From the NCBI RefSeq assembly GCF_003627755.1, contig NZ_CP032694.1, positions 108,501 to 172,500 of the forward strand: 64,000 nt of DNA. The letters run 5' to 3'. The position numbers and the translations under genes are program-made. Positions 7,308-62,251 of this stretch are shown piece after piece. The number at the start of each line of letters is the position of its first letter. The stretch's first letter is position 1. The notes under the pieces were generated by a model that saw only the letters and a program-made list of their open reading frames with translations, ran no database searches and was not told where the DNA came from. This DNA is from Rhizobium jaguaris. GTDB lineage: Bacteria; Pseudomonadota; Alphaproteobacteria; Rhizobiales; Rhizobiaceae.

Positions 7308-8323
7308 TTATTTTTTCGCCCACAGCACCTTGAAACGCGCATTTCGGCAGGTCTCGCCATGCTCGCGGAAATTCTCCGCCAGTACTGGCTCATAGGGCAG
7401 GCCGCGATTCGCGACCAGCATCAGGCGACCGCCGCTGCGTAATGCCGAGGATGCCGCCTTGATCATCGCCTGGCCGAGCGAAGGTTCGGCGGCATGGCCC
7501 TCATGAAAGGGCGGGTTCATGATCACCAGATCGTATTTGTCCTTGACCGGCTCGCTCGCCAGATCTTGCCAGAAGAAGCGCTGAGCGACCTTCGGGCAGT
7601 TTTCGAGGAGATTGGCGCGGGCCGCCTCCAACGCCTCGTAGTGGGCCTCGTAGAGGTCTAGACGCGCGATCCGCGGTGATCTGGTCGCCAGTTCCACAGA
7701 AAGATAGCCCCAGCCGGCGCCGAAATCGGCGGCATCGCCGGAAAATCGGTCGGAAGGCGCGATGCCAGCAGTTCGGAGCCGGCGTCGATGCGATCATGCG
7801 AGAACATGCCGGCAGCGGTGGTGAAGCGGCCGTCGATGCGCGTCGCGGGCTTTGCCAGTTGCGCTGCGGGAGCGCTTGTGTCGGCCGGGCGCGTAAACCA
7901 GAAAGCCACGCCGTGGTATTTCGGCATGTGCTCGACATCCAGGCCAAAACCTTCGATACGCTTGCGCAGCGGCTGAATGCCGTCTTCCTTGCCGCCGGCG
8001 ACGACGATCAGCCCGCCCGCCTTCACGCGCGTCAGCGCCTCGGCAATATGGGCTTCATTTTCGCCCTTGTGTTTGGTGCAGAGTACCAGGGCGCCGTCAT
8101 AATCCTCGCCTTCGATCTCCGGCGTCACATCGATACGCTGCGCCTGAAGCTGGCGATAGAAGGGCCTGAACCCCTGGACGGCGGAAAGCGACGCCGCAAA
8201 ACCGTCGGGCAGGAAAAAGCCCGCTTCCGCACCGAGAAACAGAATGCGCTCGCCTTCGCCAGGTGTACCGACGGTGCCGGAGGCAAAGGGGTGGAACAGG
8301 GTTTTCAAGGCGTCGCGGCTCAT
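7308..8323 (-). pseudogene. RsmC/RlmG-like 16S/23S rRNA methyltransferase, frameshifted
   Basis: Two overlapping frames together make one class I SAM methyltransferase of 338 residues. The N-terminal part (8323 down to about 7746) has the RsmC-type non-catalytic domain; the C-terminal part (7741 down to 7308) resumes in another frame with GDAADFGAGWGYLSVELA (SAM-binding motif I) and NPPFHEG, the N-P-P-F motif of guanine-N2 methyltransferases. Adding one T to the minus-strand T4 run (A4 at 7742-7745) restores a continuous protein. Sequencing error or a recent mutation are both possible. rsmC is the likeliest identity, from motifs only. Confidence 0.8.
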
Positions 8324-8386
8324 GGGCCTGGTCTCGTCATGGAAATGGGTTTCGTCTGTCGGATATGCGCCACTTCTACCTCATGC

Positions 8387-8535
8387 TGCCCCTCACCCTA
8401 ACCCTCTCCCCGTTGTAACGGGGAGAGGGGATGACAGCGCAAGACTTAGATGCCTCGGTTTGGTGGAGGGTAATCGTCGAGCACAGTCGTTATCCCTTCT
8501 CCCCGCATGCGGGGAGAGGGCTAGGGTGAGGGGCC
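8387..8535. repeat. Large inverted-repeat intergenic element (RIME-like)
   Basis: Outer arms of about 24 bases, starting GCCCCTCACCCTAACCCTCT on the left with a right arm that is its reverse complement except for one base, enclose two smaller hairpins, CTCCCCgttgtaaCGGGGAG and TCTCCCCgcatgcGGGGAGA. Total about 150 bases between pnp and the methyltransferase gene. It matches the style of the repeated mosaic elements of Rhizobium and is non-coding. Confidence 0.75.
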
Positions 8536-8576
8536 GGGCACTCAGTTTCCACAAAAATGGCCGGCACCGATAATAT

Positions 8577-8606
8577 AAAAAGGGCGCGGAAAAGATCCCG
8601 CGCCCC
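8577..8606 (-). terminator. Terminator of the rimP-pnp block
   Basis: Stem GGGCGCGG/CCGCGCCC on the minus strand followed by five T, 22 bases after the pnp stop. It closes the long minus-strand block that begins at rimP. Confidence 0.8.
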
Positions 8607-8628
8607 GAAACGTGCGTGAAGGCGCGCC

Positions 8629-10767
8629 TTATTCGGCTGCGTCGTCCTTCTTCTTATCGGCAGCGATTTCCTGGCCGGTCGTCTGGTCGACGACCTTCAT
8701 GGACAGGCGAACCTTACCGCGCTCGTCGAAGCCGAGCAGCTTCACCCAGACCTTGTCGCCTTCCTTGACGACGTCGGTCGTCTTGGCAACGCGCTCGGAG
8801 GCGAGCTGCGAGATATGGACGAGGCCGTCGCGGGCGCCGAAAAAGTTGACGAAGGCGCCGAAATCAGCGGTCTTGACAACCGTGCCTTCGTAGATCTGGC
8901 CAACTTCCGGCTCGGCAACGATCGAGTGGATCCACTTGCGGGCCGCTTCGATTTCCTTGCCGGAAGACGAAGCGATCTTGACCGTACCGTCGTCTTCGAT
9001 GTTGATCTTGGCGCCGGTCTTTTCGACGATTTCGCGGATGACCTTGCCGCCGGAGCCGATGACTTCGCGGATCTTGTCGACCGGGATGTTCATGACTTCG
9101 ATGCGCGGGGCGAATTCGCCGAGCTGGCCGCGGCTTTCGGAAATGGCCTTGGCCATTTCGCCGAGGATGTGCAGACGGCCGCCCTTCGCCTGGTTGAGGG
9201 CCACCTTCATGATCTCTTCGGTGATACCGTCGATCTTGATGTCCATCTGCAGCGAGGTGATGCCGGCTTCCGTGCCGGCGACCTTGAAGTCCATGTCGCC
9301 GAGGTGGTCTTCGTCACCCAGGATGTCGGAGAGAACGGCGAAGCGCTCTTCTTCCTTGATCAGGCCCATGGCGATACCGGCAACCGGCTTTGCCAGCGGT
9401 ACGCCCGCGTCCATCAGCGCCAGCGAGGTGCCGCAAACGGTGGCCATCGAGGAGGAGCCGTTGGACTCGGTGATTTCGGAAACAACGCGCAGCGTGTAGG
9501 GGAACTGCTCTGCCGACGGCAGCATCGGGTGGATGGCGCGCCATGCGAGCTTGCCATGGCCGATTTCGCGGCGGCCCGGAGAACCCATGCGGCCGGTTTC
9601 GCCGACCGAATAGGGCGGGAAGTTGTAGTGCAGCATGAAGTTTTCTTTGTACATGCCGGTCAGGCTGTCAACATACTGCTCGTCTTCGCCGGTGCCGAGC
9701 GTGGCAACGACGACAGCCTGCGTTTCACCGCGGGTGAAGAGGGCGGAGCCGTGTGTACGCGGCAGAAGGCCGACTTCGGCAAGGATCGGACGAACCGTCT
9801 GCAGGTCGCGGCCGTCGATGCGGCTGGAGGTGTCGAGGATGTTCCAGCGGACGATCTTCGCCTGCAGGTGCTTGAAGATAGCGCCGACTTCTTCGGCCGT
9901 GTACTTGGCTTCGCCTTCTTCCGGCAGGAAGTGTGCCTTGACCTTTGCCTTGACGGCGTCGACGGCAGCGTAGCGATCAGCCTTCTGGGTGATCTTGTAG
10001 GCTTCGCGCAATTCGGCTTCGGCAAGGCCCAGCATTTCGGTTTCGAGTGCCGAGAAATCGTCCGGCGTGAAATCGCGCGGTTCCTTGGCGGCGACTTCGG
10101 CGAGCTTGATGATCGCGTCGATGACCGGCTGGAAGCCGCGATGGCCGAACATGACGGCGCCGAGCATGACGTCTTCCGGCAGTTCCTTGGCTTCGGACTC
10201 GACCATCAGAACGGCTTCCTGCGTACCGGCAACGACGAGGTCGAGGGTCGACTCGTCCATCTCGTCGAGATGCGGGTTGAGCACATATTCGCCGTTGATG
10301 TAGCCGACGCGAGCGCCGCCGATCGGGCCCATGAACGGAATGCCGGAGAGCGTCAGGGCAGCCGAAGTGGCGACCATGGACAGCACGTCCGGATCGTTTT
10401 CGAGGTCATGCTGGATGACGGTGACGACAACCTGCGTGTCGTTCTTGTAGCCTTCCGGGAAAAGCGGACGGATCGGGCGGTCGATCAGGCGGGAAACGAG
10501 GGTTTCGTTTTCGCTCGGACGTCCTTCGCGCTTGAAATAGCCGCCGGGGATCTTGCCGGCAGCATAGGTCTTTTCCTGGTAGTTGACGGTGAGCGGGAAG
10601 AAATCCTGGCCCGGCTTCGGCGACTTGGCGGAAACGACGGTGGCAAGAACCACGGTCTCGCCGTAGGTTGCGATGACGGCGCCATCAGCCTGGCGGGCGA
10701 TCTTGCCGGTCTCGAGCTTCAGCGGGCGGCCGGCCCACTCGATTTCGACGGTATGGATATCGAACAT
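8629..10767 (-). CDS. pnp: Polyribonucleotide nucleotidyltransferase (PNPase)
   Basis: 712 residues: two RNase PH-like domains joined by an all-alpha linker, then a KH domain ([15 protein letters not shown]) and a C-terminal S1 domain ([16 protein letters not shown]). It degrades RNA 3' to 5' by phosphorolysis and is a degradosome component. The start at [11 protein letters not shown] (10767) was chosen over an extension of 13 codons because AAGGAC precedes it and family members start there. It lies downstream of rpsO, the conserved order. A perfect hairpin at 10884-10904 in the rpsO-pnp gap resembles the leader structures used for PNPase autocontrol. Confidence 0.97.
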
Positions 10768-10883
10768 ATCTTGTCCTTGCGTGGTGCGGGAAAAGGCGCG
10801 GCCCATGGATCGGCAAGGCGCATCTTCAACCGCACGAAGTGTGACGCATCACGGGCAAGACAACGAGAGGCTTTCAAGGATCG

Positions 10884-10904
10884 GCCGAAGCTTGAAGCTT
10901 CGGC
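10884..10904 (-). promoter_or_regulatory. Perfect hairpin in the rpsO-pnp intergenic region
   Basis: GCCGAAGCTT and AAGCTTCGGC pair perfectly around one base. It lies 117 bases before the pnp start within a 322-base gap. In enterobacteria the equivalent place holds an RNase III-cut stem through which PNPase controls its own mRNA; the same role here is inferred. The rest of the gap has a second GC-rich stem right after rpsO (about 11052-11080). Confidence 0.5.
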
Positions 10905-11089
10905 TGAAAGCATCCGGCAATCCTGCCCCATGACAGGTCAACGGTTGTAATTGGCAGAACCGGCCCATCCGGCCTGCCGGGTGTCTCACATCGCGCAAAC
11001 GGAAAGCGCGACGGAAACAAGTTTGACGGGTTTCAAACCCCTCATAGGCATCCGGCGGACGTTCATGCGAACGCCCGCCGGAAATTCCA

Positions 11090-11359
11090 TTAGCGGCGGA
11101 TACCGAGGCTGGAGATCAGCTTGGTATAACGGCCTTCGTCCTTCTTCTTGAGATAGTCAAGAAGCGAGCGCCGGCTGGAAACCATCGTCAGGAGGCCACG
11201 GCGGGAGTGATTGTCCTTCTTGTGGTCCTTGAAGTGGTTTGTGAGGTTGTTGATGCGCTCGGTCAGGATCGCAACCTGGACTTCCGGAGAACCGGTGTCG
11301 CCTTCGACGGTGGCGTATTCCTTGATCAGCGCAGCCTTGCGCTCAGCAGTAATCGACAT
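11090..11359 (-). CDS. rpsO: 30S ribosomal protein S15
   Basis: 89 residues, exact family length, with the S15 signature across [20 protein letters not shown] and ending LISSLGIRR. It binds 16S rRNA and nucleates assembly of the small-subunit platform. The start at 11359 has AGGACC 6 bases upstream; a long in-frame upstream extension is rejected because it runs through the intergenic repeat. It sits between truB and pnp as in most proteobacteria. Confidence 0.97.
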
Positions 11360-11504
11360 CGGATGGTCCTTTCTATGAGAGGAAATAATGTCGCCAAACG
11401 CCGGGATGTCGTCCAGCATTGGCCGCGAATGCAATCGGGCAGGCCCGATGCTGGCGCTGCCTATAGACCATTTGCGCCGCAAAGGGAAGAGCATCGTGTC
11501 TTTG

Positions 11505-11688
11505 CCTTCTCCCCTCGGGGAGAAGGTGGCCCGAAGGGCCGGATGAGGGGGCGCGGCATCGGGAAATTGCCTTTCGCTTACGCTCAAGGCCCTCGCAGCT
11601 CCGCTCCTCGGCCCCCTCATCCGGCCTCTCGCAATCTCGCTCAGCGAGTTTGCTCGCGTCCACCTTCTCTCCGCTGGAGAGAAGGTGC
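11505..11688. repeat. Inverted-repeat element between rpsO and truB
   Basis: The left half (11505-11550) has a CTCCCCTCGGGGAG hairpin then GGCCGGATGAGGGG. The right half (11614-11687) has CCCCTCATCCGGCC and ends in a TTCTCTCC/GGAGAGAA hairpin, so the halves are inverted relative to each other. It reaches almost to the truB stop and may act as terminator or processing site inside the operon. It is a Rhizobium-type mosaic element distinct from the one at 8387. Confidence 0.7.
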
Positions 11689-11690
11689 TT

Positions 11691-12623
11691 TTATACAAAA
11701 ACCCGCTTCGGGCGGAATTCACCCTGACCGATCTCGCCGATGGCGATCAGCTTGCCGCGTGCCGTGGCATAGGCCTCCGTTTCTGCAACCGGCGCATCAC
11801 GTCCGCGCACGAGAATGGGATTGCCCATCTTAAGGCGATGTGCCTGATCATCGTTGATGACGAGGTGGGGCAGGGCCGACAGCGCTTCCGCGGTGTCGAT
11901 CAGCAGCGCATCGAGAGCGGCCAGCCGCTCGTCCGCATCCTCGATTGCCTCAAGTGCGACGAGATCAGCTAAAGGCACCATCGTCTCCTCAGCAAAGGGA
12001 GCGACGAAACTGCGGCGCAGTCCGGAAATATGGCCGTAGCAACCGAGATCGCGACCGAGATCGCGGGCGAGCGCACGAACATAGGTACCCTTGCCGCATT
12101 CCACCTCGAAATACGCCGTATTGGCATCCGGGCAAGCAAGCAGCGTCAGGCGGAAAACCTCCACTTCGCGCGACGGGATTTCGACGGTTTCGCCATCACG
12201 GGCAAGATCATAGGCGCGTTCGCCGGCGATCTTGATGGCGGAAAACTGCGGCGGGATCTGCTGGATGACGCCGGTATATTTCGGCAGCAGCGCGCGAATA
12301 TCCTCTTCGCTCGGGCGCTTGTCCGAAGTCTGGGTCACCTCGCCTTCGAGGTCGTCCGTGGCGCGTTCCTCGCCCCAGGTGACGGTAAATTCATAGATCT
12401 TCCGGCCGTCCATGACATAGGGAACGGTCTTGGTGGCGTCGCCAAGCGCGATCGGCAGCATGCCGGAGGCAAGCGGATCGAGCGTGCCGGCATGGCCCGC
12501 CTTCTGCGCCTTGAACAGCCACTTGATTTTGGAAACGGCCTCCGTCGAGCCGAAGTCCACCGGTTTGTCGAGGATCAGCCAGCCGGAAATCGGGCGGCCT
12601 TTGGGCTTGCGTGGTTTGGACAT
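11691..12623 (-). CDS. truB: tRNA pseudouridine-55 synthase TruB
   Basis: 310 residues. The catalytic Asp49 lies in [11 protein letters not shown], the TruB motif II, with [11 protein letters not shown] before it and a PUA-like C-terminal region. It makes pseudouridine-55 in the T-loop of tRNAs in the cytoplasm. It starts 12 bases after the rbfA stop, so the two are cotranscribed. Confidence 0.95.
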
Positions 12624-12635
12624 TCTCTGTCTCTG

Positions 12636-13055
12636 TTATCGGTCTTTGTCGGTGTCGGTATCGCCGTCTTCGAGATCGCGCTGGACCTCCGGCGAGCGCA
12701 GCAGCGCATCGATCTTCTGGTAGTTGTCGAAGCTTGTATCGTCACGGAAACGGATCTCCGGCATGTATTTCATCTGCCGAAGCTGCGGTCCGAGACGGCC
12801 GCGGATGAATTTCGCATGCCGATTGAGCGTCTCGATGACGGTCTCATGGTCAACGACGCCGAGCGGCGTCACATAGGCGGTGGCGATCTTCAAATCCGGC
12901 GACATGCGCACCTCGGAAATGGAAATCACGGTGCGCTCGATCAGGTCGTCGCGCACTTCGCCGCGCTGCAGAACCTGCGTGATCGCGGCGCGCACTTGCT
13001 CGCCGACGCGAAGCATGCGCTGCGAGGGCGCGGAAGAAGTTGGTCTTGTAGCCAT
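12636..13055 (-). CDS. rbfA: Ribosome-binding factor A
   Basis: 139 residues with the type II KH-like fold of Rbf[37 protein letters not shown] and [15 protein letters not shown]. It helps mature the 16S rRNA 5' end and is needed in the cold. The start [10 protein letters not shown] (13055) is preferred over a 19-codon extension that runs through the hairpin at 13078-13105. The tail is acidic ([13 protein letters not shown]). Confidence 0.95.
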
Positions 13056-13077
13056 TTGTCTTGATCCCAAAAGGTTC

Positions 13078-13105
13078 GGGCGCCGGACTGGATGTTCCGG
13101 CGCCC
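13078..13105 (-). promoter_or_regulatory. Strong hairpin between infB and rbfA
   Basis: 10-bp perfect stem GGGCGCCGGA/TCCGGCGCCC with an 8-base loop and no U run, in the 76-base infB-rbfA gap. It is more likely a processing site or mRNA stabiliser than a full terminator. Confidence 0.5.
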
Positions 13106-13131
13106 GTCCCAATGTTTCAATCTATCCTGCC

Positions 13132-15873: not shown

Positions 15874-15974
15874 TCCGTTCCCGTTCCTTCGGACAGGGTA
15901 CGGAATCGTCCGTCAGCCCCTGTCGTTCAATGCATGTACCTTAATGAGGCGTCCGGTATCGACCGGTGACCGCG

Positions 15975-19192: not shown

Positions 19193-20133
19193 TCAGGCGG
19201 ACCGAAGCGCCTCGTCCTCCTCGCGACTCCGTCTTCCTTCTTCGATAAGCCAGTCGCGTACACGCTGCGCAGGTGCGTTAAGTTCCCTTGATCGCGGCCA
19301 GACGACATAGAAGGCCATATTGGTATTCAGGACATGCCTGCCGACGGCGACCAGCGCGCCAGATCGAAGCTGTTCTTCGATAAGATGTTGCCAACCGAGC
19401 GCGACACCTTCGCCCGCCAAAACAGCCTGGATGACCAGGACATAGTCATTGATCGTCAGTCGCCGGGGCTGCGGGGCATAGCGTACCCCGGCGCTCGCAA
19501 ACCATTCGGACCAGTCGCACGCAGCCCGAACGGGCTCTTCGAGATGGATCAATGGCAGCGCCAGCAGGTCTTCAGGGCGCTCCGGGCGCCGCCGCTTTTC
19601 TATGAAGCGCGGGCTTGCTACCGGAAACACAATCTCCGGTGCCAGCATCGCGGAATGATAACGCGGCCAATTTGCGGGATCGCCGCCTCGAACTGCAAGT
19701 GGAATTGGCTCCTCGTCCAGGTCGAGATCACGCACGCTTGTCTGGATGCGCAGATCGATATCCGGAAGGTCTGCCCGCAGACGCGCCAGACGCGGCAGCA
19801 TCCACATGGAACCGAAGGCAGTCGAAGCTGCCAGTGTAACATTGGATTCCCGACCTTTTGTTCGAATGTCCTCCGCCGACTTCTGGATGCGTGACAAGCC
19901 TACGGTGACGTCCGCGTGGAAGCGCTCCCCGATGTCGGTCAGTTCGACATTCCGATGTTCGCGGTGGAAGAGCGGCACGCCAAGCTGATCTTCAAGCTTC
20001 CGAACGGCCAATGAGACAGCAGCCTGGCTCATGCCCAGCTCCTCGGCCGCGCGGCTAAAATTCTGATGCCGCCCGGCAGCCTCGAAGATGATGAGTGCCG
20101 AGGCAGACGGCAGTAGTCTTCGAATGTTTCCAT
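19193..20133 (-). pseudogene. LysR-family (GcvA-like) regulator, apparent 5' frameshift
   Basis: The open frame from ATG 20032 lacks half of the DNA-binding helix-turn-helix. The same frame stays open upstream and encodes RLLPSASALIIFEAAGRHQN and FSRAAEELG, the classic GcvA-type N-terminus, but has no ATG, GTG or TTG before a stop. An ATG at 20133 lies in another frame; adding one base in the AA pair near 20121 (minus GAAGAC to GAAAGAC) joins it as METFERLLPSAS and gives 313 residues, normal for LysR. It is divergent from the mttB-like gene, its probable target. A non-canonical start (CTG or ATT) is the alternative. Confidence 0.75.
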
Positions 20134-20217
20134 AAGCTCAGCTTATACAGACCAAGTTTTTTCCAGCATTACAGGAGCGCAAAGTCGTCCTAGCCTTCAT
20201 TAGTTATGGAGGCGAAT

Positions 20218-21767
20218 ATGACCGAGGCGATAGTCGACGAAAGGGCCGGCAAACGAGGACGCAGCGTCGTGCTGCACGTCGGGAAGGCACCACGAAGCTG
20301 CCCGGCGTTCCCTACATTATCCGCAACATTCCGACATACGACATCCTTTCCGAGGAAAACCTTCAGAAGATCGAGCGGACGGCCGAACGTATCCTCGCCG
20401 AGATCGGCATCGAGTTTCGCGATGACCCCGTGTCCGTCGACCACTGGAAGCGGGCCGGAGCCCGCGTCGAAGGCGTTCGCGTTCGGTTCGAACCCGGCAT
20501 GCTGCAGGAGATCGTCGCTTCCGCGCCGAGCGAATTCACTCAGCATGCCCGCAATCCTGCCAACAATGTCCAGATCGGCGGTAAAAAGGTCGTCTTCTCG
20601 CCCGCCTACGGCTCGCCCTTCGTCATGGACCTCGACAAGGGTCGCCGCTACGGAACGATCGAAGACTTTCAGAACTTCATCAAGCTCGCCCAGGCAAGCC
20701 CTTGGCTGCATCATTCCGGCGGCACGATCTGCGAGCCGGTCGACGTGCCCGTCAACAAGCGCCATCTCGACATGGTCTACAGCCACATCAAGTATTCCGA
20801 CCGCGCATTCATGGGCTCGGTGACGGCGGAGGAGCGCGCCGAAGATTCGATCGAGATGACGCGTATTCTCTTCGGTGCCGACTTCGTCGATCGAAACTGC
20901 GTTATCCTCGGCAACGTCAACGTCAATTCTCCGCTCGTGTGGGATGGGACGATGACGAAGTCGTTGCGAGCCTATGCTCGCGCCAATCAGGCTGCCGTCA
21001 TCGTGCCCTTCATCCTCGGCGGCGCGATGGGCCCCGTTACCAATGCGGGAGCCATTGCCCAATCCTATGCCGAAACGCTGGCCGGCTGCGCCCTCACGCA
21101 GCTCGAACGCAAGGGCGCTCCGGTTATCTTCGGAAATTTCCTATCTTCCATGTCGCTGCGCTCGGGATCGCCCACCTTCGGTACCCCCGAACCCGCCATC
21201 GGTTCCATGGTCATTGGTCAGCTTGCCCGGCGGCTGAAACTTCCGCTGAGATGTGCGGGCAATTTCTCCAATTCGAAACTGCCTGATGGCCAAGCCATGC
21301 AGGAGGGCCTGATGTCCATGCTGTCGGCCATCCATTGCGGGGCGAACTTCATCCTGCATTCGGCCGGTTTCCTGGATGGTCTGCTCGTAATGTCCTACGA
21401 GAAGTTTGTGATGGACGCCGACCTGTGCGGGGCACTGCACTCCTACCTCGCCGGCGTTACGGTCGACGACAATACGCTCGCTTTCGACGCCTTCGAAGAG
21501 GTCGGACCCGGCAGCCATTTCCTTGGCTCGGCCCATACTATGCGGAACTACCAGACCGCATTCTGGGATTCGACGCTTTCGGACAACGAGCCCTTCGAGA
21601 AATGGAGCGAGGAAGGCGGTTCCACTGACATTGCAACCCGCGCCAACAGACAGTGGAAGACAACACTCGCCAATTATGAAGCACCGCCGTTGGACAACGC
21701 TGCCGATGAAGCCCTGTGCGATTTCATGGCAAGACGCAAAGCGTCGATGGCGGACGGCTGGTATTGA
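20218..21767 (+). pseudogene. MttB-family (trimethylamine/betaine) methyltransferase, 5' frameshift
   Basis: The main frame from about 20265 encodes an MttB-superfamily TIM barrel: PTYDILSEENLQKIERTAER, SSMSLRSGSPTFGTPEPAIG and a conserved C-terminus. The natural start MTEAIVDERAGKRGR (ATG 20218, TTATGGAGGCGAAT ribosome site) lies in another frame; one extra base at 20262-20268 joins it to RRAARREGTTKLPG and gives 516 residues, full length. There is no in-frame amber codon, so it is a non-pyrrolysine member, a group that includes glycine betaine methyltransferases. No corrinoid protein gene is adjacent. It is probably controlled by the divergent LysR protein. Confidence 0.8.
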
Positions 21768-21897
21768 ATTACGTGATCATATCGCCCGACGTCGGGGGTT
21801 ACGGCTTTTGGATAAGATCCGAGCCCTTTACGCATACCTTTGACGGCGAGTAGCCGTATGTCCGCTTCGGCCCGAAGCTACCACTACTGAATTCCGC

Positions 21898-23158
21898 CTA
21901 TTTCAGCAGGCCGAGCATCGAGCTATCGGGATAGCAGGTGGGCTTGCGGCCGCTCTTTTCCTGCCATTGGCCGATGGATCGCCGGGTCTTGTAGCCCGGC
22001 AATCCGTCGGTGCCGCCGACGTCGTATCCCTTGCGCTCCAAGGTCACCTGCATGCCGGCGACGTCGGAGCGCAGCATCTTGCCGACATCGCCCCATTGGC
22101 CCTGGAAGGCGCCGGAACCATAGGCGATGCGGTCGGCGAGATTGCCGATAAAGAGGCCGTAGAGGTCGGAATTATTGTATTCCTTGATGACGTAGAAATT
22201 CGGCGTGACGATAAATTCCGGCCCGTCGCGGCCGGCCGGCACCACATCATACCGCCGGCCTTGAGTTCGTCGGACGGAAAAGCCTTGCCGGAAATCCTGA
22301 CGATCCCAGCGAGTTCCATTGCGAAATCGGCTTGACGAGATCCGGTCCTTCCTGCGCGCAGGAAACGTTTTCCGGGATCGTGACTTCGTAGCCCCAGCCG
22401 CGGCCGCGCTGCCAGCCCTTCTGCGTCAGAAAATTGGCTATGGAGGCAAGGGTATCGGGCACCGAGGTCCAGATGTTGCGATGGCCGTCGCCGTCGAAAT
22501 CGACCGCATATTTCAGATAGCTGGTCGGCATGAACTGTGGTTGGCCGAGCGCGCCCGCCACGGATCCCATGAACTGGCCGGGCGTGACATCGCCATGTTC
22601 GAGAATGCCGAGTGCGGCGATAAGTTCGGTGCGAAACATATCCTTGCGGGTCGACATGAAGGCTTTGGTCGCCAGCACCTGGACCGCCGAATTCGGCAGC
22701 TTCGCCGCTCCGTAGCCGGTCTCGCGACCCCAGATGGCAAGCAGGATCGGGCCGGGCACGCCGTAAACTTTTTCGATCTTTCTCAGCGTCGGCCCGTATT
22801 GCGACGCGAAACTGCGTCCGGTCGCTGCCAGCTTCTGCAGTCGTGCCTCGTTGAAATAGGGAGCGGGAGAAGAGAATTCCGCCTGCGTCTGCGGCTGCTC
22901 TTTGGGCTTCGGAAAACCCGGCGGCGCCAGATCCGGCAGATCCCAATTCAGTGTCACGCCCGCAAAGGCGGCCTGGAAAGTCTTGTCTGAAACGCCGTCC
23001 TTCTTCGCTTCCGGCCAAAGGTCCTGTTGCACCCAGGCCTGGAACTGCGCTTCGACATCGGCCTTTGAGGCAGCAAGGGCGGGAAGGGGAAGGAGGGCGA
23101 GGAGGAGGATAAGCAAGCGCAGAATGTTCCGCGCCACCGATATGTGCACTCTCCTCAT
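21898..23158 (-). pseudogene. MltB/SLT-2-type lytic murein transglycosylase, two frameshifts
   Basis: A Sec signal peptide (LRLLILLLALLPLPALAAS) leads into a catalytic domain with IWGRETGYG (catalytic Glu) and GALGQPQFMPTSYLKYAVDFDGDG, then a C-terminal peptidoglycan-binding repeat (LERKGYDVGGTDGLPGYKTR). Three frames are used in turn: breaks lie near 22304-22307 and 22251-22256, and one added base at each restores a 420-residue protein. The enzyme cleaves the MurNAc-GlcNAc bond in the periplasm. The start is uncertain: ATG 23158 is very close to its AAGGAG, and a nearby GTG is possible. It directly follows recR. Confidence 0.8.
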
Positions 23159-23172
23159 ACTCCTTCTCTCCC

Positions 23173-23778
23173 TCAAATCGCCGTCCGTGCCCGCAACGCC
23201 GCCGTTAGCGTGCCCTCGTCCAGATAGTCGAGTTCGCCGCCGACCGGTACTCCATGGGCGAGGCGGGTGATTTTCACCTCAAGGCCGGCAAGCTGGTCGG
23301 TTATATAGTGTGCTGTGGTTTGCCCCTCGACCGTCGCATTCACGGCGATGATGATTTCGCTGACGCCGCCTTCGCTGACGCGTTCGATCAGCCCGCGGAT
23401 GTTGAGATCGTCAGGTCCGACACCGTCGAGCGGTGACAGTACGCCGCCAAGCACGTGATAGGCCGCGTTCATCGCGCCGGCGCGCTCCAGCGCCCAGAGA
23501 TCGGCGACATCCTCGACAACGATGATGACAGATTGATCGCGGCGGTCGTCGGTGCAAACGGTGCAAGGGTCGACGGTATCGACATTGCCGCAGCGCGAGC
23601 AGATCTTCACCTTGTCATAGGCCTCGCCCATGGCATGGGACAGAGGGCCGAGCAACTGATCCTTCTTCTTGATCAGGTGCAATGCGGCGCGCCGCGCCGA
23701 GCGTGGGCCGAGGCCCGGCACCTTCGCCAGAAGCTGGATGAGTTTTTCAATTTCGGGACCGGTAACTCGCTTTGCCAT
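23173..23778 (-). CDS. recR: Recombination protein RecR
   Basis: 201 residues. The N-terminal helix-hairpin-helix has the [21 protein letters not shown] motif ([15 protein letters not shown]), then the C4 zinc finger [16 protein letters not shown], and a Toprim domain ([30 protein letters not shown]). With RecF and RecO it loads RecA at gaps. In many bacteria it is cotranscribed with dnaX-ybaB; here dnaX-ybaB lie 3 kb away. The stop lies 15 bases before the transglycosylase start. Confidence 0.96.
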
Positions 23779-24462: not shown

Positions 24463-24464
24463 GT

Positions 24465-41078: not shown

Positions 41079-41850
41079 TCGGCCGCCGCTCTCGCGCGCT
41101 TGCGGCGGTAGCGGATGGTCTCGAAGCGGGCGGCAAGCCCGTCATAGAGCAGCAGGCGGCCGATCAGCGGTTCGCCGATGCCGGTGATGAGCTTGATCGC
41201 CTCCATCGTCATCAGCGTGCCGATGACGCCGGTCAGTGCGCCGATGATACCGGCCTCGGAGCACGCGGGAATAAGGCCTTTGGGCGGGGCGTCGGGAAGA
41301 GATCGCGATAGCCAGGGTTCGGCGTACCGTCGGCGTTGGTCTCGAAAGGCTTCAGCGTCGTCAGCGAGCCGTCGAACCGGCCGACCGCACCAGTTACCAA
41401 CGGCAGCTGTGCCAGTTCGGCTGCGTCCGCTGCAGCGTAGCGCGTGTCGAAATTGTCGGAGCCGTCGACAATGAGATCGAACCCAGCGAGGTGGCGCGCG
41501 GCCGTCTCGACGGAAAAACGTTCCTCGAAGCGGATGGTCCGAACATGCGGATTCAGCCGCGCAATGGCGTCGGCCGCACTCTGGGTCTTCAGCTCGCCGA
41601 TCGTGCCGGTATCGTGGATCACCTGCCGTTGCAGGTTGGAGAGCGAGACGCGGTCGTCATCGGCTATCCCGAGCGTACCGACGCCGGCGGCGGCGAGATA
41701 TTGCAGCACCGGCGCACCAAGCCCGCCCGCGCCGATCACCAAAACCCGTGCCGCCTTCAATTTCTGCTGACCGGCGCCGCCCACTTCAGGCAGCAGGATG
41801 TGGCGCTTGTAACGGGCGATTTCGTCTGAAGTCAAAGGATCCATGGCCAT
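41075..41850 (-). pseudogene. moeB: MoeB/ThiF-family adenylyltransferase, frameshifted
   Basis: The N-terminal part has the E1-like fold: RYKRHILLPEVGGAGQQKL, nucleotide loop VLVIGAGGLGAPVLQYLAAA, NLQRQVIHDTG and DGSDNFDTRY. In the given frame it ends in unrelated sequence after NPGYRDLFPTP. The other frame continues PPKGLIPACSEAGIIGAL, the expected family ending, so one base is missing in the G4 run at 41286-41289; repair gives 258 residues. MoeB/ThiF proteins adenylate the C-terminus of MoaD or ThiS. There is no rhodanese domain. The start at MAMDPLTSDE is a choice among nearby ATGs. Confidence 0.82.
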
Positions 41851-41881
41851 GATATTATCACGCTCCGCTGAAAATTCTCCG

Positions 41882-43009
41882 CTATGATTTTGAAATGCCG
41901 CCATGGGCGACGGTAAAGAATTGGGCCCGTTCGCCGAGCGCGGAAAACATCGCTCTATCGGTGCCGGTCATGAAGGCCTGGCCACCGAGCCCGTCGATCA
42001 GGTCGAAGAGGGCTGCGCGCCGGCCTTCGTCCAGATGCGCGGCAATTTCGTCCAGCAGCAGGATCGGCGCGTGGCCGGTCAAGTTGCCCACCAGCCGGGC
42101 ATGGGCGAGGATGAGGCCGACGAGCAGGGCCTTCTGTTCGCCCGTTGAGCAACGCTCCGCCTCCATATTTTTCTCACGATGACGCACCAGCAGATCGGCC
42201 CGGTGCGGGCCGTCAAGCGTGCGCCCGGCAGCCGCATCGCGATAGCGTCCCTCGCGTAGCATCTCGGCATAGCTGTCCTCGAGATCGACGGCCGGGCGGT
42301 CGAATTGCTCGTCGAGGAAGCCGGACAGCTCGAGCGCCGCAGATGGAAAGGGGGTTGCTTCACGCGATTCGGCGATCAGTCGGGTAAGAAGACCGAGCAT
42401 CTCCTGCCGGGCGAGTGCCATGGCGATGCCGAGGCTCGCCATCTGCTCCTCGATGCCGGTAAGCCAGGACGGATCGAATCGGCCTTCGGCGAGCAGTTTG
42501 TTGCGGCTGCGCATGGCGCGCTCGAAATCGCTGGCGCGGCGGCCGTGTGCAGGATCCAGTGACAATACCAGTCTGTCGAGGAAGCGCCGCCGCTCGGAGG
42601 AGCCGCCGGTGAACAACCCGTCCATGGCCGGGGTCAGCCAAAGCACGCGCAAATGGTCGGTCAACTCGTCCACGGTCTTGGCCGGCGTGCCATTGATCCT
42701 GAGCTTGCGAGCCGTCGTCTCGTCACTCGCGTCGACGCCGGTTCCGATCTCGACCTCGCCATCCATGCCATCGAGCTCGGCGAAGATCGAAAAGCCGCCC
42801 GATGCATCGACGAGCGTGACATCCGCATAAGCCGCGCGCCGCAGACCGCGCCCGGGTGAAAGGAAGGAGACTGCCTCCATCAGATTGGTCTTACCGGCAC
42901 CGTTGTCGCCGGTCAGCACCACATGCCGCTCGTCAAACGCAAGCGCCGCCGCCGCATAATTGCGGAAGTCGGTCAGCTTCAGGCGCGAGATGAAAACCTT
43001 GTGCGGCAT
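41882..43009 (-). CDS. recF: DNA replication and repair protein RecF
   Basis: 375 residues. Walker A TGDNGAGKTNLMEAVSFLSP, the LDRLVLSLDPAHGRR region, the signature CSTGEQKALLVGL and Walker B APILLLDEIAAHLD identify RecF. It works with RecO and RecR to load RecA on gapped DNA. It lies far from dnaA/dnaN, as is usual in Rhizobiales. Confidence 0.95.
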   Translation of the reverse strand: MPHKVFISRLKLTDFRNYAAAALAFDERHVVLTGDNGAGKTNLMEAVSFLSPGRGLRRAAYADVTLVDASGGFSIFAELDGMDGEVEIGTGVDASDETTARKLRINGTPAKTVDELTDHLRVLWLTPAMDGLFTGGSSERRRFLDRLVLSLDPAHGRRASDFERAMRSRNKLLAEGRFDPSWLTGIEEQMASLGIAMALARQEMLGLLTRLIAESREATPFPSAALELSGFLDEQFDRPAVDLEDSYAEMLREGRYRDAAAGRTLDGPHRADLLVRHREKNMEAERCSTGEQKALLVGLILAHARLVGNLTGHAPILLLDEIAAHLDEGRRAALFDLIDGLGGQAFMTGTDRAMFSALGERAQFFTVAHGGISKS

Positions 43010-52899: not shown

Positions 52900-52914
52900 T
52901 GAGGAGGAGTATTC

Positions 52915-53324: not shown

Positions 53325-53352
53325 AGAAGGCCAGCGACTTGGGTCGCTGGCC
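53325..53352. terminator. Hairpin between DUF982 and the SH3/Arg-Tyr-rich gene
   Basis: AGGCCAGCGAC and GTCGCTGGCCT form an 11-bp perfect stem around TTGG in the 221-base gap between convergent genes. The flanking U run is poor; it is probably a shared terminator. Confidence 0.6.
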
Positions 53353-53378
53353 TAATCATTTGACTGCCGTGCAGTCGA

Positions 53379-54233: not shown

Positions 54234-54805
54234 AAATGCTCTCCCTTTGCGCGCCGCCGGCATGACATGACGCCCGGCGGCTGCGCTGATTGCTGTCGCC
54301 CACTTACCTGACATATCCGGCAAGGGACGGGCGGTGCGGTTACAGGACCCGGCATACCGTTTCCAGTTTCGATAAGATGAAAAATAGCGCATCCGCGGGA
54401 TTTGGTAGGATCCAGCGCCCATTCTTGCAATCTTTTCAGCAGTTTTACGAGAATTTGCATGAATGCAGGTTGAACGGATACCGGCAAAACCCTCAAAACT
54501 AGCCGAAATTTTTAGGAAGACTTGCTTATTATATTGGGGTTACTGCGGTTTTAGTGGGCGCACCCGCTATGAACTGGTTGAGGAAAAAACTGTGGCGGCC
54601 TTGAATTCGCCGTACTGCCTCCCGATATACACCGCAGTCATGCAGTCGGAGAATGATTGGCGCGCTTTATAGCGAGCCCTTTTTATTCCCAGGAGATTGC
54701 GGAAGTGGCGTTGACCAAGTGTTAACCTTTCGCGACCAATCTGGCTGCAGTATCCGCCTTGCCTTTGACCACGGATGTACTGGCACTGATGCGAGACGGA
54801 TGACG
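54234..54805. other. Long intergenic stretch, possible small-RNA locus
   Basis: Between the SH3 gene promoter and a plus-strand terminator at 54806. Short frames here have no ribosome sites. The presence of a terminator with no gene before it suggests a transcript, but I find no clear promoter or conserved fold. Confidence 0.35.
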
Positions 54806-54831
54806 AAAGGCCGGTTTACTCCGGCCTTTTT
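54806..54831 (+). terminator. Orphan rho-independent terminator
   Basis: AAAGGCCGG/CCGGCCTTT with a short ATTT-containing loop (TTTACT) and a run of five T. No coding gene on the plus strand ends nearby, so it marks the 3' end of an unannotated transcript. Confidence 0.65.
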
Positions 54832-54908
54832 GTTTATCGACTGTCAGGTGGCGTGCTTTGCGGAAGCGGAGCGCGCCATTTTTAGTTTGACCCCGTTTTG
54901 TCCTGGCC

Positions 54909-54942
54909 AAAGAAAAACCGCCGCAGGTGACTGCGGCGGTTT
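54909..54942 (-). terminator. Terminator of the NodT-like gene
   Basis: On the minus strand AAACCGCCGCAG/CTGCGGCGGTTT (12-bp stem, 4-base loop) is followed by a U-rich run. It begins about 40 bases after the stop at 54981. A second GC-rich stem CGCCCGG/CCGGGCG lies between. Confidence 0.8.
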
Positions 54943-54980
54943 CACAGGAAGAAGCGCCCGGCAGAGCCGGGCGGTGTCCT

Positions 54981-56435: not shown

Positions 56436-56473
56436 CACATTATCCCACAATTCAATTTACATGATCACTATCT

Positions 56474-56496
56474 TATGGGGTCAACGTGACCCCATA
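56474..56496. promoter_or_regulatory. Perfect palindrome before the NodT-like gene
   Basis: Arms TATGGGGTCA and TGACCCCATA around ACG: 10 bp, no mismatch, 39 bases from the start codon. It is ideally placed as an operator of a dimeric regulator (TetR-like sites have this form). No regulator is encoded next to it. Nothing else is visible in the 355-base gap up to purC. Confidence 0.7.
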
Positions 56497-56790
56497 TGTG
56501 TCGGTGCTCCTGTCTACGCATTACCAACTAACGACCCGAAGCAGTCGGCGCCAATCTAGCAACGAGTTTTGCAATAGCACAGTGCCTTTTGCGATTTCTC
56601 GCGGCAGAACACGTGTGGGATCATGACAAATAGAGGGGTTTCAGTAAAAAAATTATAAAGTGTTGCAAAAAACATACCCTCCCTCATGCTACTTAAAGCA
56701 GTAGGTGCCCAACGATTCGAAATCCGGCGCAACTTGAGAGCGGTCATCCAGCACAGTAGCATGAGCTGAATGAACCAATCGGACGGTTTC

Positions 56791-57738
56791 CTATGGGAAA
56801 TAGTGGGAGAGGCTTGCGCGAACCCGGTCGCGCGGTGTTGCACCGCGGTCGTCGGGAACGAAAGGCGTAGCGGTGATCGCTTCGTAAGCGCGGATGTACA
56901 CCTTCGAGGTCTGTTCGATCAGATCGAGCGGAATTTCGGGTATCTCGTCCTTATAAGGATCGCACCGCTCGGTCACCCAGGCGCGGACGAAATCCTTGTC
57001 GAAACTTGCGGGGCGCGCGCCCTTTTCGAAGCTGTCTTGGTAACTGTCAGCCAACCAGTAGCGGCTGCTGTCCGGGGTGTGAATTTCGTCGGCGAGGATG
57101 ATAGCGCCGTTTTCATCGGTGCCGAACTCATATTTGGTGTCGACGAGGATCAATCCCCGTGTGCGGGCAATCTCCTGGCCACGCGCGAACAAAGCCAGCG
57201 CATAATCCGACAATGTCTGCCATTGCTCCTTCGTCAACAGCCGGCGCTCGATGATCTCAGCCGGCGTCAGCGGTTCGTCGTGGCCGCCATCGAATTCCTT
57301 GCTGGTCGGGGTGATGATCGGCGTCGGTAGGATCTGGTTGTCGCGCATGCCGTCCGGCAGCGTGATGCCGTACATCTCGCGTTGACCCTTCTTATAAAGT
57401 GTCAGGATCGATGTGCCCGTCGTGCCGGCGAGATAGCCGCGCACCACAATTTCGACCGGCAGGATGTTCAGCCGCTTGCCGACGACGACATTTGGATCGG
57501 GATAGGCGATGACGTGATTTGGGCAGATGTCCTTCGTCGCCTCGAACCAGTAACGCGCCGTCTGCGTCAGTACCTGGCCCTTGTAGGGAATGCAGGTGAG
57601 AATGCGATCGAAGGCGCTCAGCCGATCGGTGCTGATGATGATGCGGCTGCCATCCGGCAGGTCATAATTCTCGCGCACCTTGCCGCGGTAATAATTGGGC
57701 AGTTCCGGGAAATAGGCTTCGGAGAGAATTCGCAACAT
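56791..57738 (-). CDS. purC: SAICAR synthetase (long form)
   Basis: 315 residues, longer than the 237 of E. coli and of the type also found in yeast. Features: [43 protein letters not shown] and [12 protein letters not shown]. It joins aspartate to CAIR in purine synthesis. It stands apart from other pur genes; rhizobia often have a second, short purC with purS/purQ. The start [20 protein letters not shown] was chosen over a 14-codon extension; the ribosome site is weak. Confidence 0.94.
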
Positions 57739-57792
57739 AGTCACCAGCAGGCTCGTGCACCCGCCCGACGGATGCTTCATGTTTGGACCCTT

Positions 57793-57842
57793 AGCGCATA
57801 ACGCCGAAAATCGGAATCGATTTTCGGGCGGGCTTATGCGTC
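57793..57842. repeat. Rhizobial palindrome, GCATAACG/CCGAAAATC type
   Basis: Inner arms CCGAAAATC (57804-57812) and GATTTTCGG (57819-57827) with GGAATC between, flanked by GCATAA and TTATGC. I recognise this unit as common in Rhizobiaceae intergenic DNA. A further hairpin AAGAGCG/CGCTCTT (57849-57868) overlaps the end of the next gene. Confidence 0.65.
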
Positions 57843-57865
57843 GTGCATTAAGAGCGGCTGCGCTC

Positions 57866-59611
57866 TTAAATCCAGAACCAGCCGATCAAGGCCAGCGCTA
57901 CACCGTAGCTGACGGTGGTCAACAGCCAGCCGGCGCGCAGGAAATCGATGAAACGATAGCTGCCGATGCTCATGGTCAGCGTATTGTTGTGATGACCGAA
58001 CGGGGTGATGAAGTCGAGCGACGCGCCGGCCGCCACGGCAATCAAATAGGCATTGGCGGAATGCCCGGCCTTGGCGGCCAGTTCGAAGGCGATCGGCGTC
58101 AGCACGATGGCGACAGTGGCGTTGTTGACGAAGGGAGTGATCGCCATCGCCAGGAACAGAATGAGCGCGACGCCGAAACCTGGTCGTTCGATCGGCACGA
58201 TAGTGCCGAGCCCGCCCGCCAGCATCTCCGCCGTCCCGGATGTCGCCACTGCCGTGCCGAGCGGGATCATCGCCGCCAGCATGATGATGATCGGCCAGTT
58301 GAGATCGGCGATCGCGGCGCGGAGGTTGATGAAATTCAATAGCGCCATTGCCAGAATGACGCCGGCAAAAGCGATCTCGGGGCGAAGTAGGCCGGTGGCG
58401 GCGGCGAGCACGCCGCAGGCAAAAAGCAGCAGCGGCCAGAGAGAGCGCAATGGCGGCGTATGATCGTGACTTGCGGCCAGCGGCAGGCATTCGCATTCCT
58501 CCAGCGCCTCGGCGATCGCGTGCCTCGGCCCCTCCAGCTTGAGGATATCGCCGATCGAAAGAGCAAGATCGTCGAATCGGCCTTCGATGCGCGGCGAGCG
58601 CATGGAAAGCCCGATAATGGCGATCCCGCGTGAGCGAAAAACGTCGAGCGATTCGATGTGCGAACCGATCAGCGTGCTTTGCGGCATGACGACCGCTTCG
58701 CTGCGGATGAGATCGGATCCATAGGGGTCGGAATCGGATTCGAGTGTCAGCACGCCTTTTGCCGATAGCCTGTCGAACATCACGTCCGAACCTTCGGCTA
58801 GCAGAATATCGCCAGCCTCTATCACGACGCCTTTGGCGGCGGAGACGAAACGGCTACCGCGGATCAGGGCGTGCGGCTGGATGCCGAAAGCCCGGCGGCA
58901 ATCCGCCAGTCCTTGACCGATCAATGGCGAGCCATGTGGTACCCGGCGTTCCGCAATCATCTGCCGGTCCATGACCAGTCCCGGTGCCGCATCCTCCTCC
59001 CCTGATCTGGGAAACAGCCGCCGGACGGTTGCGGCGATCAGAATCACGCCGACCACGGCGACCGGCAAGCCGACATAGGCGAAATCGAAGAAATGGAAGC
59101 CGCGTCCGGTAGCTCTGAGCAGGGCGTCGCTGACCAGAAGGTTGGCCGGCGTGCCGATCAGCGATACCAATCCGCCGAGAAGAGCCGAAAAGGAAATCGG
59201 GATCAGCAGCTGACGCCGCGGAATGGCGGTGACATCGGCGATGCGCAGCGCCACCGGCAGCGCAATGGCATAGGCGCCAATATTGTTCATGAAGATAGAG
59301 ATGAAGGCCGTCAGCCCGGAAAGCGCTCCGATGATGACAAAGGACGGCGGGTCTGCGGCAAGCAGGCGGTCCACCAGCGCGCCGAAAAGCTGCGCCCGCG
59401 CCAGGACCTGCACGATCAGCAGGATTTCGATGACGGTGATCACCACCGGGCTCGCGAGGCCGGAAAAGACTCCCTCCGCCGGATAAAGACCAAGCACGTA
59501 TCCGGCGAGCACTCCGGCGATCGAAACGACCTCGATCCGGAAGCGGCCAAGACAAAACAGCGCCAGCATCAGGCCCAGAAGGATCAGCAGGGATGCTTGT
59601 TCGAACGTCAT
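57866..59611 (-). CDS. SLC13/ArsB-type transporter with TrkA-C domains
   Basis: 581 residues. Transmembrane halves (1-190 and 385-581, including [17 protein letters not shown] and [20 protein letters not shown], the conserved helical hairpin motifs of the ion-transporter superfamily) flank a cytoplasmic part with two TrkA-C (RCK_C) domains (about 220-370). Relatives carry sulphate, dicarboxylates or arsenite; with RCK_C domains they are often sulphate or Na+-coupled anion carriers. The substrate here is unknown. The start is at 59611 without a strong ribosome site. Confidence 0.85.
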
Positions 59612-59689
59612 GGGCGGGTCCCGGAGATTCGCCAGGACCTAGAATGAACCAGCCTGCCGGTCCTGTACAGCCCCGGCGCCGAACTGCCG

Positions 59690-60373
59690 TCAGCCAGGCC
59701 TGTGCCAGCGGCCGTTTTCGCCTCTTTCGAGAATCGGCGTCGAAAACACGCCGACGATCCGCTCGCTCCATGGCTTGCCGGTGGCATCGACCCGCTGCCG
59801 CCATCGTTCGGATTGCAGCATCGCCGCCCCGATCACCACAGGTTCGATGCCGCATGCGGTCAAAAGCTCCAGGCCGGAGACGATCGAGGCGCCGCTCGAG
59901 ATCACGTCGTCGATCAGCGCCACCCGTTTTCCTTGCAGGAGCGGCAGCATGCGCGGATCGACATAGAGCCTTTTTTCCTGGTTCGGCGTGGTGATGGAGG
60001 AAAGCGAAACCGACAGATCCTCGCGATACCAGAATTTGCGCGAGGTGCCGAGCGGAACATAACGCTGGTGGCCCAGCACTCGGGCGACCACACTTGCCAG
60101 CGTCAATCCAAGCGTCGGCAATCCGGCGACGACATCGACGTCATACGCGGCGATGCGCGCGGCCAGCGCTTCGGCCAATGCCTCCTGCACGGAAAAACTT
60201 GCCTGATTGATGATCAGTGACGCTAGCGCTTGGTCGCCATCGGCCAGCACGCGGATCGGCAGGCGCAATTGCCGCCCGTCTGGCAGTTCCGCTACATAGA
60301 AATCGCCGAACTCGCCTGTTGTGCAGAAGCTTTGCGGCGGATGAACCTCCTGCCAGAAATCATGAGGCTGCAT
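59690..60373 (-). CDS. Type I phosphoribosyltransferase (orotate PRT-like)
   Basis: 227 residues. The PRPP-binding loop is RVALIDDVISSGASIV (two Asp then S-S-G-A-S), with VDVVAGLPTLGLTLASVVAR as the pyrophosphate loop region. The N-terminal hood FWQEVHPPQSFCTTGEFGDF differs from PyrE. Paralogues in rhizobia are annotated as orotate or generic phosphoribosyltransferases; the base is not settled. It overlaps the end of the pseudouridine synthase gene by 14 bases on the same strand. Confidence 0.85.
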   Translation of the reverse strand: MQPHDFWQEVHPPQSFCTTGEFGDFYVAELPDGRQLRLPIRVLADGDQALASLIINQASFSVQEALAEALAARIAAYDVDVVAGLPTLGLTLASVVARVLGHQRYVPLGTSRKFWYREDLSVSLSSITTPNQEKRLYVDPRMLPLLQGKRVALIDDVISSGASIVSGLELLTACGIEPVVIGAAMLQSERWRQRVDATGKPWSERIVGVFSTPILERGENGRWHRPG

Positions 60374-61208
60374 TGCGTCCCGCCTTTAGTCCATTTCGTC
60401 CATTCTTTTCCATTCCCGCGCGGCGGTTAAGCCCGAGGATCTCAGCCTCCGTCAGCGCCCGGACCGCACCTTTCGGAAGATCGCCGAGTGTGATGCTGCC
60501 GAAGGCGATGCGCACCAGCCGCAGGCATTCGATGTCGAGCACCTCCAGCATCCGCCGGATTTGCCGGTTGCGCCCTTCCTTGAGCTCGACTTCGATCCAG
60601 CCGTTGCGGTCGCCGCTGCGCAGCAGGCGGGCGGAGGTCGCTGTCAGAAGCTCGCCGTCGTCGACGATCCCGCGTTCCATGCGATGCAGGAGTTCCTGGT
60701 CCATGATACGGTTGACCTGGACGTGATAGATCTTGCCGACATGTGTAACCGGATCGAGCAGCGCCTGCGCCATTACCGTGTCATTGGTGAAGAGAAGCAG
60801 CCCTTCGCTTGCCTTGTCCAGCCGCCCGACCGGCGCCAGATGCCGGGCGTCGATATCCCTCAGACAATCGTAGACCGTCGGCCGGCCCTCGGGATCGTCG
60901 CGCGTCGTCACCAGCCCACGCGGCTTGTTCAGCATGAACCATAGCTTCTTTTCCGCTGATATCTCGGTGCCATCGACGGCAATCTGCGCCCGGTCGAGAT
61001 CGATCCAGGCGGCCGGATCGGTGATCTTGCGGCCATCGACCGCAACACGGCCGCTAGCAATCAGCGCTTCGGCCTGGGTGCGCGAGCAATATCCGAGCTT
61101 CGACAGCGCCCGCGGCAGCGTCACACGTTTGCCCTCCGTCTCCTGCCGGCCTTTTGTGCCCTTGCTCGATCTCTGCGGTGGATGCCTTTGGCTCACCTGC
61201 TGCCTCAT
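60360..61208 (-). CDS. RsuA/RluB/RluE-family pseudouridine synthase
   Basis: 282 residues: an S4 RNA-binding domain (about 28-85: LPRALSKLGYCSRTQAEALI) then the synthase domain with catalytic Asp in GRLDKASEGLLLFTND, KIYHVQVNR and GRNRQIRRMLEVL. It makes pseudouridine in rRNA; RluB, RluE and RsuA cannot be told apart here. The start at MRQQVSQR (61208) has AAGG close by; the longer frame is out of character. A 324-base upstream gap separates it from the response regulator. Confidence 0.88.
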   Translation of the reverse strand: MRQQVSQRHPPQRSSKGTKGRQETEGKRVTLPRALSKLGYCSRTQAEALIASGRVAVDGRKITDPAAWIDLDRAQIAVDGTEISAEKKLWFMLNKPRGLVTTRDDPEGRPTVYDCLRDIDARHLAPVGRLDKASEGLLLFTNDTVMAQALLDPVTHVGKIYHVQVNRIMDQELLHRMERGIVDDGELLTATSARLLRSGDRNGWIEVELKEGRNRQIRRMLEVLDIECLRLVRIAFGSITLGDLPKGAVRALTEAEILGLNRRAGMEKNGRNGLKAGRNAAS

Positions 61209-61460
61209 CCTTATTCTGACGATGCCAATCCTTTCGCATGAGGAAGGTTGCGAGGCAAATCGCGGCAAAGGGAAACACACAGGACAGACAGGGCCCGCGC
61301 TTGTTGACGCGAGCCCTGCCGGCAGTCCGGAGCAGCGATGGGGGTCGGGTGCGGCGACGACGCGGTGGTTGCGGCCGCTCGCTCCGGAGCGGCACCGTAG
61401 GGGGCGCCGTCGCGGCAAACCTGCATCGCTTCTGTTGCGGGGATTTTTCAGAACTGCGGA

Positions 61461-61480
61461 AATTTGTTACAATTTGTAAC
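61461..61480 (+). promoter_or_regulatory. Tandem OmpR-type boxes before the response regulator
   Basis: AATTTGTTAC directly followed by AATTTGTAAC, a 10-bp direct repeat with one change, which also contains the palindrome GTTACA-ATT-TGTAAC. OmpR/PhoB-type regulators bind such tandem 10-11 bp half-sites. It lies 53 bases upstream of the regulator's ATG, fitting autoregulation. The rest of 61209-61460 shows no gene. Confidence 0.6.
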
Positions 61481-61532
61481 GCCAGCCGTTTCCCTGTTGT
61501 CAAAATTGCCCTTCGCCTCGCATGGATGAGCC

Positions 61533-62251
61533 ATGGTTTCTGCATCGCTTCTTCTGGTCGAGGACGACCGCGAAATTAGAGCGCTCCTGGAGGAGTTTCT
61601 GAGCCGCGAGGGTTTTGCCGTCGAGGCCGTCGAAAGTGCGGCCGCCATGGATCGTGCGCTCGCCAGGGTTTTCCTGATCTCATCATTCTCGATCTGATGC
61701 TGCCGGGTGAGGATGGTCTTTCGGCCTGCCGCCGTATCCGGGCGCGCAACCAGGTTCCAATATTAATGCTGACGGCGAAGTCGGATGATATCGACCGCAT
61801 CCTCGGCCTGGAGATGGGCGCTGACGATTATCTCGGCAAACCCTTCAATCCGCGCGAGCTCTTGGCGCGCATCCGCGCCATCCTACGCCGTTCCGGTCCC
61901 GAACGCTCCGAGGAGGGCGGCGGTCCGCGGCGGCGCAAGAGTTTTGCGGGCCTGATCGTCGATCTTGACGGACGGGCGATCGAGATCGAAGGCGAGGGCT
62001 CGGTGCGCCTGACGACGGCGGAGTTCGATCTGCTCGTCTGCTTTCTCGAGCGGCCGCGCCGTGTGCTGTCGCGCGACCAATTGCTCGACTGGACGCGCGG
62101 GCGCGGTGCAGACCCCTTCGATCGCACCATCGATGTCACCGTCTCGCGCCTGCGCACCAAGCTTGCGCATTATTTGCCGGATGGCGCTCAGGTCATCACC
62201 ACCGTGCGCAATGCCGGCTATCTCCTGACCGTTGACGTAAGGGATGTCTGA
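61533..62251 (+). pseudogene. OmpR-family response regulator, frameshifted
   Basis: The start MVSASLLLVEDDREIRALLE (ATG 61533) reads to a stop near 61695. The other frame continues with LIILDLMLPGEDGLSACRR and a full winged-helix effector domain. Adding one T to the T4 run at 61669-61672 joins them as ARVFPDLIILD and gives 239 residues, with phospho-acceptor Asp54 and an acidic pocket at 11-12. The C-terminal DNA-binding domain has RLTTAEFDLLVCFLERPRRV. It is followed 3 bases later by its histidine kinase. A shortened gene starting at 61697 would lack the acidic pocket, so it is unlikely. Confidence 0.85.

Follow-up and report, generated by a model that had tools for sequence, protein, structure and literature searches.

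We analysed a 64,000-nucleotide stretch of the Rhizobium jaguaris chromosome (G000:C1:108501-172500, hereafter the window), in which seven single-base breaks interrupt six genes, and we are close to certain that these breaks are an assembly artefact, namely residual consensus errors of the PacBio RS II/Canu assembly of strain CCGE525T. The genome comprises 8,025,568 bases in 4 contigs, with 4,575,315 bases in C1, the chromosome, and both totals match exactly those printed for R. jaguaris CCGE525T (PMC6395872). We favour an artefact because all 19 persistent breaks counted along a larger part of the chromosome are single missing bases, the broken genes retain normal constraint, dapB carries two breaks and a second copy of it was not found, and the sequence was deposited from PacBio RS II reads and Canu with no polishing named. 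The six window genes, listed below, are very probably intact in the organism.

7308..8323, minus strand: RsmC-like 16S rRNA methyltransferase, in two frames, with the frame change at 7741/7742
19193..20133, minus strand: LysR-type regulator, with the frame change at about 20122, within the first codons; start placed near 20133 from the alignment
20206..21767, plus strand: mttB, trimethylamine methyltransferase family, with the frame change at 20265/20266
21898..23176, minus strand: lytic murein transglycosylase, MltB_2 subfamily, with frame changes at 22244/22245 and 22307/22308
41129..41904, minus strand: moeB, molybdopterin-synthase adenylyltransferase, with the frame change at 41287/41288; low end placed from the length in relatives
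61533..62251, plus strand: OmpR-type response regulator, with the frame change at 61666/61667, before a T4 run; start placed from the length in G096

The alignment set for the window first comprised syntenic DNA from five congeners (G069, G106, G096, G060 and G119), the longer blocks being mostly 84-94% identical; two more (G062 and G031) were added later, giving seven relatives for five of the seven break points. For the LysR and mttB points, eight separate loci were used, the best one per genome from eight genomes in a search over 148 genomes of the genus, because the first five congeners do not carry the locus at that position. At all seven points the window is shorter by exactly one base than every aligned relative: 7 of 7 at the five points in the RsmC-like, transglycosylase, moeB and response regulator genes, and 8 of 8 loci at the two in LysR and mttB. 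The relatives have a long open frame at each point and none shares a break (0/7 at five points, 0/8 at two), so the breaks are private to the assembly. An earlier sequence-only reading had proposed seven breaks in six genes, each lacking one base, and had named alignment with the closest Rhizobium genomes as one check; all seven are present within a few bases of where it had placed them, and the six loci are open in the relatives.

That reading had also described family-consistent protein on both sides of the frame changes, and the named families were matched (MTS/MTS_N, LysR_substrate/HTH_1, MTTB, SLT_2, ThiF and Response_reg/Trans_reg_C). In the RsmC-like gene, 7308-7697 matches MTS and 7658-8323 matches MTS_N (just below the cut-off) and the start of MTS; the relatives' open reading frames span 338-364 amino acids, and the intact G096 copy has the RsmC model NF007023 as its best match, below the cut-off. 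The LysR piece at 19193-20032 carries LysR_substrate and only positions 25-60 of HTH_1, while the mttB piece at 20430-21767 matches MTTB 62-499, and the true mttB start may be an in-frame ATG at 20218. For the transglycosylase, whose two breaks lie 63 bases apart, the piece at 22247-23176 matches SLT_2 and the intact G096 copy matches TIGR02283 above the cut-off; the low end of this gene was taken from the open reading frame at 21898-22245 and the high end from that at 22247-23176, with an uncertain start codon. The moeB piece at 41233-41904 matches ThiF and the G096 copy matches NF004281 above the cut-off; a protein search of the genome itself (E<=0.001) found moeB at this locus only, as two pieces. 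Finally, the response regulator piece at 61697-62251 carries Response_reg from position 52 together with Trans_reg_C.

A scan of the window for length differences private to it, with at least three of the first five relatives aligned, covered 55,004 of 64,000 positions and returned 20 rows, seven of them full and isolated: five coding (7742, 22245, 22308, 41288 and 61668) and two at ~1152 and 5977. The remaining 13 were short and noisy; for two of these (19060 and 57830) the alignments were inspected, and the other 11 were left to a stricter coding count. For that count, C1:1-712,500 was compared with the corresponding stretches of G096, G119 and G060, and isolated in-gene frame changes private to one genome, with the other three agreeing, were counted with each genome as the focal one in turn, with genes identified on a different genome by their third-position substitution bias. 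The CCGE525T assembly yielded 20 isolated coding frame changes in 366,036 positions, of which 19 persisted, all 19 being single missing bases. One, at C1:569129, was dropped since its net difference over 200 bases was a multiple of three, a rule that also removed two of the 18 isolated changes of G060. Five of the 19 persistent breaks lie inside the window and 14 outside; the LysR and mttB breaks are not among them because G096 has no synteny there. This corresponds to about one break per 19 kb of comparable coding sequence in the sampled part of the chromosome. G096 and G119 had two persistent events each (in 360,116 and 359,895 positions), and by our own arithmetic the one-sided probability of the excess over G096 is ~1e-4. 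The more distant G060 had 16 in 369,275 positions (8 of -1, 6 of +1, one -2 and one -4).

The 19 breaks affect 17 genes, of which 13 lie outside the window. For the latter, family searches with the intact G096 copies gave as best matches, several of them scoring under the model cut-offs, an ABC permease, PhnI, DapB (two breaks), a long aminotransferase, an exopolysaccharide transport protein, a PseB-like protein, a D-serine-dehydratase-type enzyme, an aldo/keto reductase, LptB, LptC, a methyltransferase-like protein and an OlsB-like acyltransferase; a 174-codon gene at C1:389443, whose G096 copy spans two fetched stretches, was counted without being assigned to a family. The breaks in lptB and lptC were set aside as evidence from essential genes, as the former lies upstream of the first residue that the LptB model matches and the latter near the C-terminus. 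In dapB the frame holds for roughly the first 204 of its 274 residues only. A protein search of the genome itself (E<=0.001) found three pieces of this one locus in different frames (residues 1-204, 202-239 and 239-274) and no second dapB copy. DapB makes a precursor of diaminopimelate and lysine, and dapB is essential; a lineage without DapB should therefore not make its own cell wall precursor. If the breaks were real, the two in dapB would be expected to abolish its function.

Selection on the broken genes was assessed from substitutions on the branch leading to this genome. At codon positions 1, 2 and 3 these numbered 127, 94 and 521 in the 17 broken genes versus 2172, 1366 and 9143 in the intact genes, giving third-position fractions of 0.702 and 0.721 and no sign of relaxed selection in the broken genes (Fisher P 0.27). 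This result can be compatible with very recent gene loss, and it bears on the possibility that the sequenced culture had itself acquired these frameshifts lately, for instance as a strain with a high rate of single-base loss, leaving no time for other traces to form. Such mutations would likewise be private to this genome and, if very recent, would leave codon constraint normal. However, all 19 persistent events are alike in size and sign (a +1 event appears when another reference is used), two breaks hit a dapB that has no second copy, and slippage would have favoured runs, in which the breaks are not concentrated; we therefore consider real recent mutations very improbable. A specific form of this explanation, in which a deletion-biased mutator state in the CCGE525T culture broke many genes, some of them tolerated through frameshift suppression, is in our judgement more improbable again.

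A mixed origin, with some true pseudogenes amid assembly errors, would apply above all to the transglycosylase or the LysR-mttB locus. The two transglycosylase breaks are close together, further gaps surround LysR-mttB, and the location of the latter locus is scattered among relatives. In addition, the own-branch changes of the transglycosylase (7, 11 and 37 by codon position) are the least biased towards the third position among the four window genes tested, which do not include LysR and mttB. The breaks at these loci are nevertheless of the same one-base-loss type as elsewhere, and the broken genes as a group lack relaxed constraint, which makes true pseudogenes here very improbable, though slightly less so than wholesale recent mutation. 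Frameshift pseudogenes in general resemble the present genes in that a single indel (insertion or deletion) puts the frame out of register; of the features by which they are recognised, neither relaxed selection nor a restriction to dispensable genes was seen here, where constraint is normal, the persistent events share one sign and size, and dapB is affected.

Under the preferred explanation, consensus errors, single bases would have been dropped at consensus calling in a Canu assembly with no reported polishing. The deposited sequence of CCGE525T was produced with PacBio RS II P6-C4 chemistry and Canu v1.5 with default parameters at ~278-fold coverage, and the publication mentions neither polishing nor short reads for this assembly (PMC6395872). 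According to Canu's own authors, polishing is necessary for best accuracy. We infer that none was done and that the missing bases are present in the raw reads. PMC6395872 and passages of PMC10508132 describe no resequencing of CCGE525T. In a bacterial benchmark, the PacBio/Canu consensus reached 99.99% at 200x before Illumina polishing, indels being what higher coverage mainly removed (PMC6848147). Our rate of ~5 coding breaks per 100,000 coding bases, or ~99.995% by our own arithmetic, is of the same order and fits such an assembly before short-read polishing. The deletion reading offered from the sequence alone is thus upheld by the uniform loss of one base, the normal constraint, the doubly broken dapB and the sequencing method.

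Several observations weigh against this conclusion, the first of them being the sequence context of the missing bases. In the relatives' consensus, 14 of the 19 missing positions have a run length of one and two a run length of two, and lengths of three, four and five occur once each. Runs of at least three therefore hold 3 of 19, against a background of ~10% (P 0.31), and runs of at least four hold 2 of 19 (P 0.07), which is about chance for the former, and a homopolymer origin is not supported. The argument that three of the seven window breaks fall in four-base homopolymers accordingly fails, and so do two of its three examples: the A run in the RsmC-like gene stands, whereas the G4 run of moeB and the T4 run of the response regulator proved misassigned once aligned with the relatives. 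The moeB G4 does not represent a shortened run, since G stands at that column in none of five relatives, and the gap in the response regulator precedes the T4 run, in a G/A stretch (a four-G run in 3 of 5 relatives). Judged by eye, gaps in the assembly's own sequence often touch short runs, which is probably what had been seen.

Further points on the same side concern the comparison and the counts. The relatives are only ~79-94% identical and the comparison set has no same-species genome. The G060 total of 16 persistent events means that the count of 19 is by itself not unusual; greater distance can raise the event count, as in G060, though there in both signs. All four control events in G096 and G119 are also losses. 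With G119 as the reference over C1:1-452,500, the 17 events of this genome comprise 15 of -1, one of -2 (near window position 1152) and one of +1. Across all sequence of that same stretch, coding or not, the 36 isolated private indels comprise 18 of -1, 3 of -2, 3 of +1, 1 of +2, 1 of -4 and 10 multiples of three; the genome thus also has a few private insertions outside genes (3 of +1 and 1 of +2 among the 36). Density is also uneven: two pairs lie within 120 bases, reached by 88 of 20,000 random draws, and C1:1-100,000 holds none of the 20 isolated one-base coding losses where ~3.4 are expected. This clustering and the empty first 100 kb might follow from uneven consensus quality. Lastly, the published coverage of ~278-fold is high for such errors (PMC6395872).

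No common motif stood out at the 19 points, with a weak excess of short runs among the 105 words tested; the largest excesses belonged to CCC and AAA (of 30 three-letter words) and to AAAG and CCCC (of 75 four-letter words), with uncorrected P ~0.001-0.007. This bears on the possibility that the frame changes are genuine and are bridged in translation by programmed ribosomal frameshifting or slippage, with which the family-consistent protein on both sides of the breaks, where the pieces are long enough to test, would agree. The same genes lie in one open frame in the relatives, however, and neither a conserved shift with a common slippery site nor any other shared motif was found around the 19 points, leaving this explanation with a negligible probability.

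Compared with known systems, the breaks resemble the residual indels of long-read assemblies (PacBio/Canu and MinION), in which short indels split genes. In the Kastor paper, most indel errors of a MinION assembly are false deletions, and these deletion errors are highly associated with runs, whereas no clear homopolymer bias is seen here (PMC12007338). There is a likeness also to the NCBI 'many frameshifted proteins' problem, in that a type-strain assembly here has many frame-shifted genes; that phrase has been used to illustrate problematic sequencing or assembly (PMC10228379). The breaks have the marks of such artefacts, being confined to one assembly, recurrent along C1:1-712,500, of one dominant error type and from an error-prone sequencing method; concentration in homopolymers, a common though not a required mark, is lacking. 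A contamination figure of 4.48, considered as a sign of split genes, was not decisive, the figures of ten listed congeners being 4-10.

The matter is one of data quality: this assembly gives no grounds for concluding that RsmC, MoeB or DapB is absent. Extended to all 8.03 Mb of the genome, the sampled rate would give ~400 such breaks, an extrapolation of our own from C1:1-712,500 alone. In the control G060, the 16 persistent private coding frame changes lie in G060:C5, 2492001-3107000, and are mostly +1 or -1; some may be assembly errors of G060.

Other private length differences in the window, none of them listed in the earlier sequence-only reading, were judged to be non-coding or upstream of a likely gene start. 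These are a 2-base gap near 1152 (5 of 5 relatives), a 1-base gap near 5977 (3 of 3 relatives), a 1-base gap at ~19061 and one extra base at ~57830. The LysR-mttB locus carries two more:

20148..20202, no strand: two private gaps of 2 bases each in the LysR-mttB interval, one following 20148 and the other 20201, in the alignment with 8 of 8 loci

Together with the two 1-base genic gaps, these intergenic ones make four private gaps in ~145 bases (20122-20265), a local concentration that may reflect poor consensus there. G062 and G031 also have the LysR-mttB pair (window 19200-21860), at 90% identity, and in them it shares a contig with the moeB neighbourhood; the pair is absent from this place in G069, G106, G096, G060 and G119. 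In G096, G119 and G106 the best match to the pair sits on another contig, and a more distant mttB-like match lies at C1:2486598.

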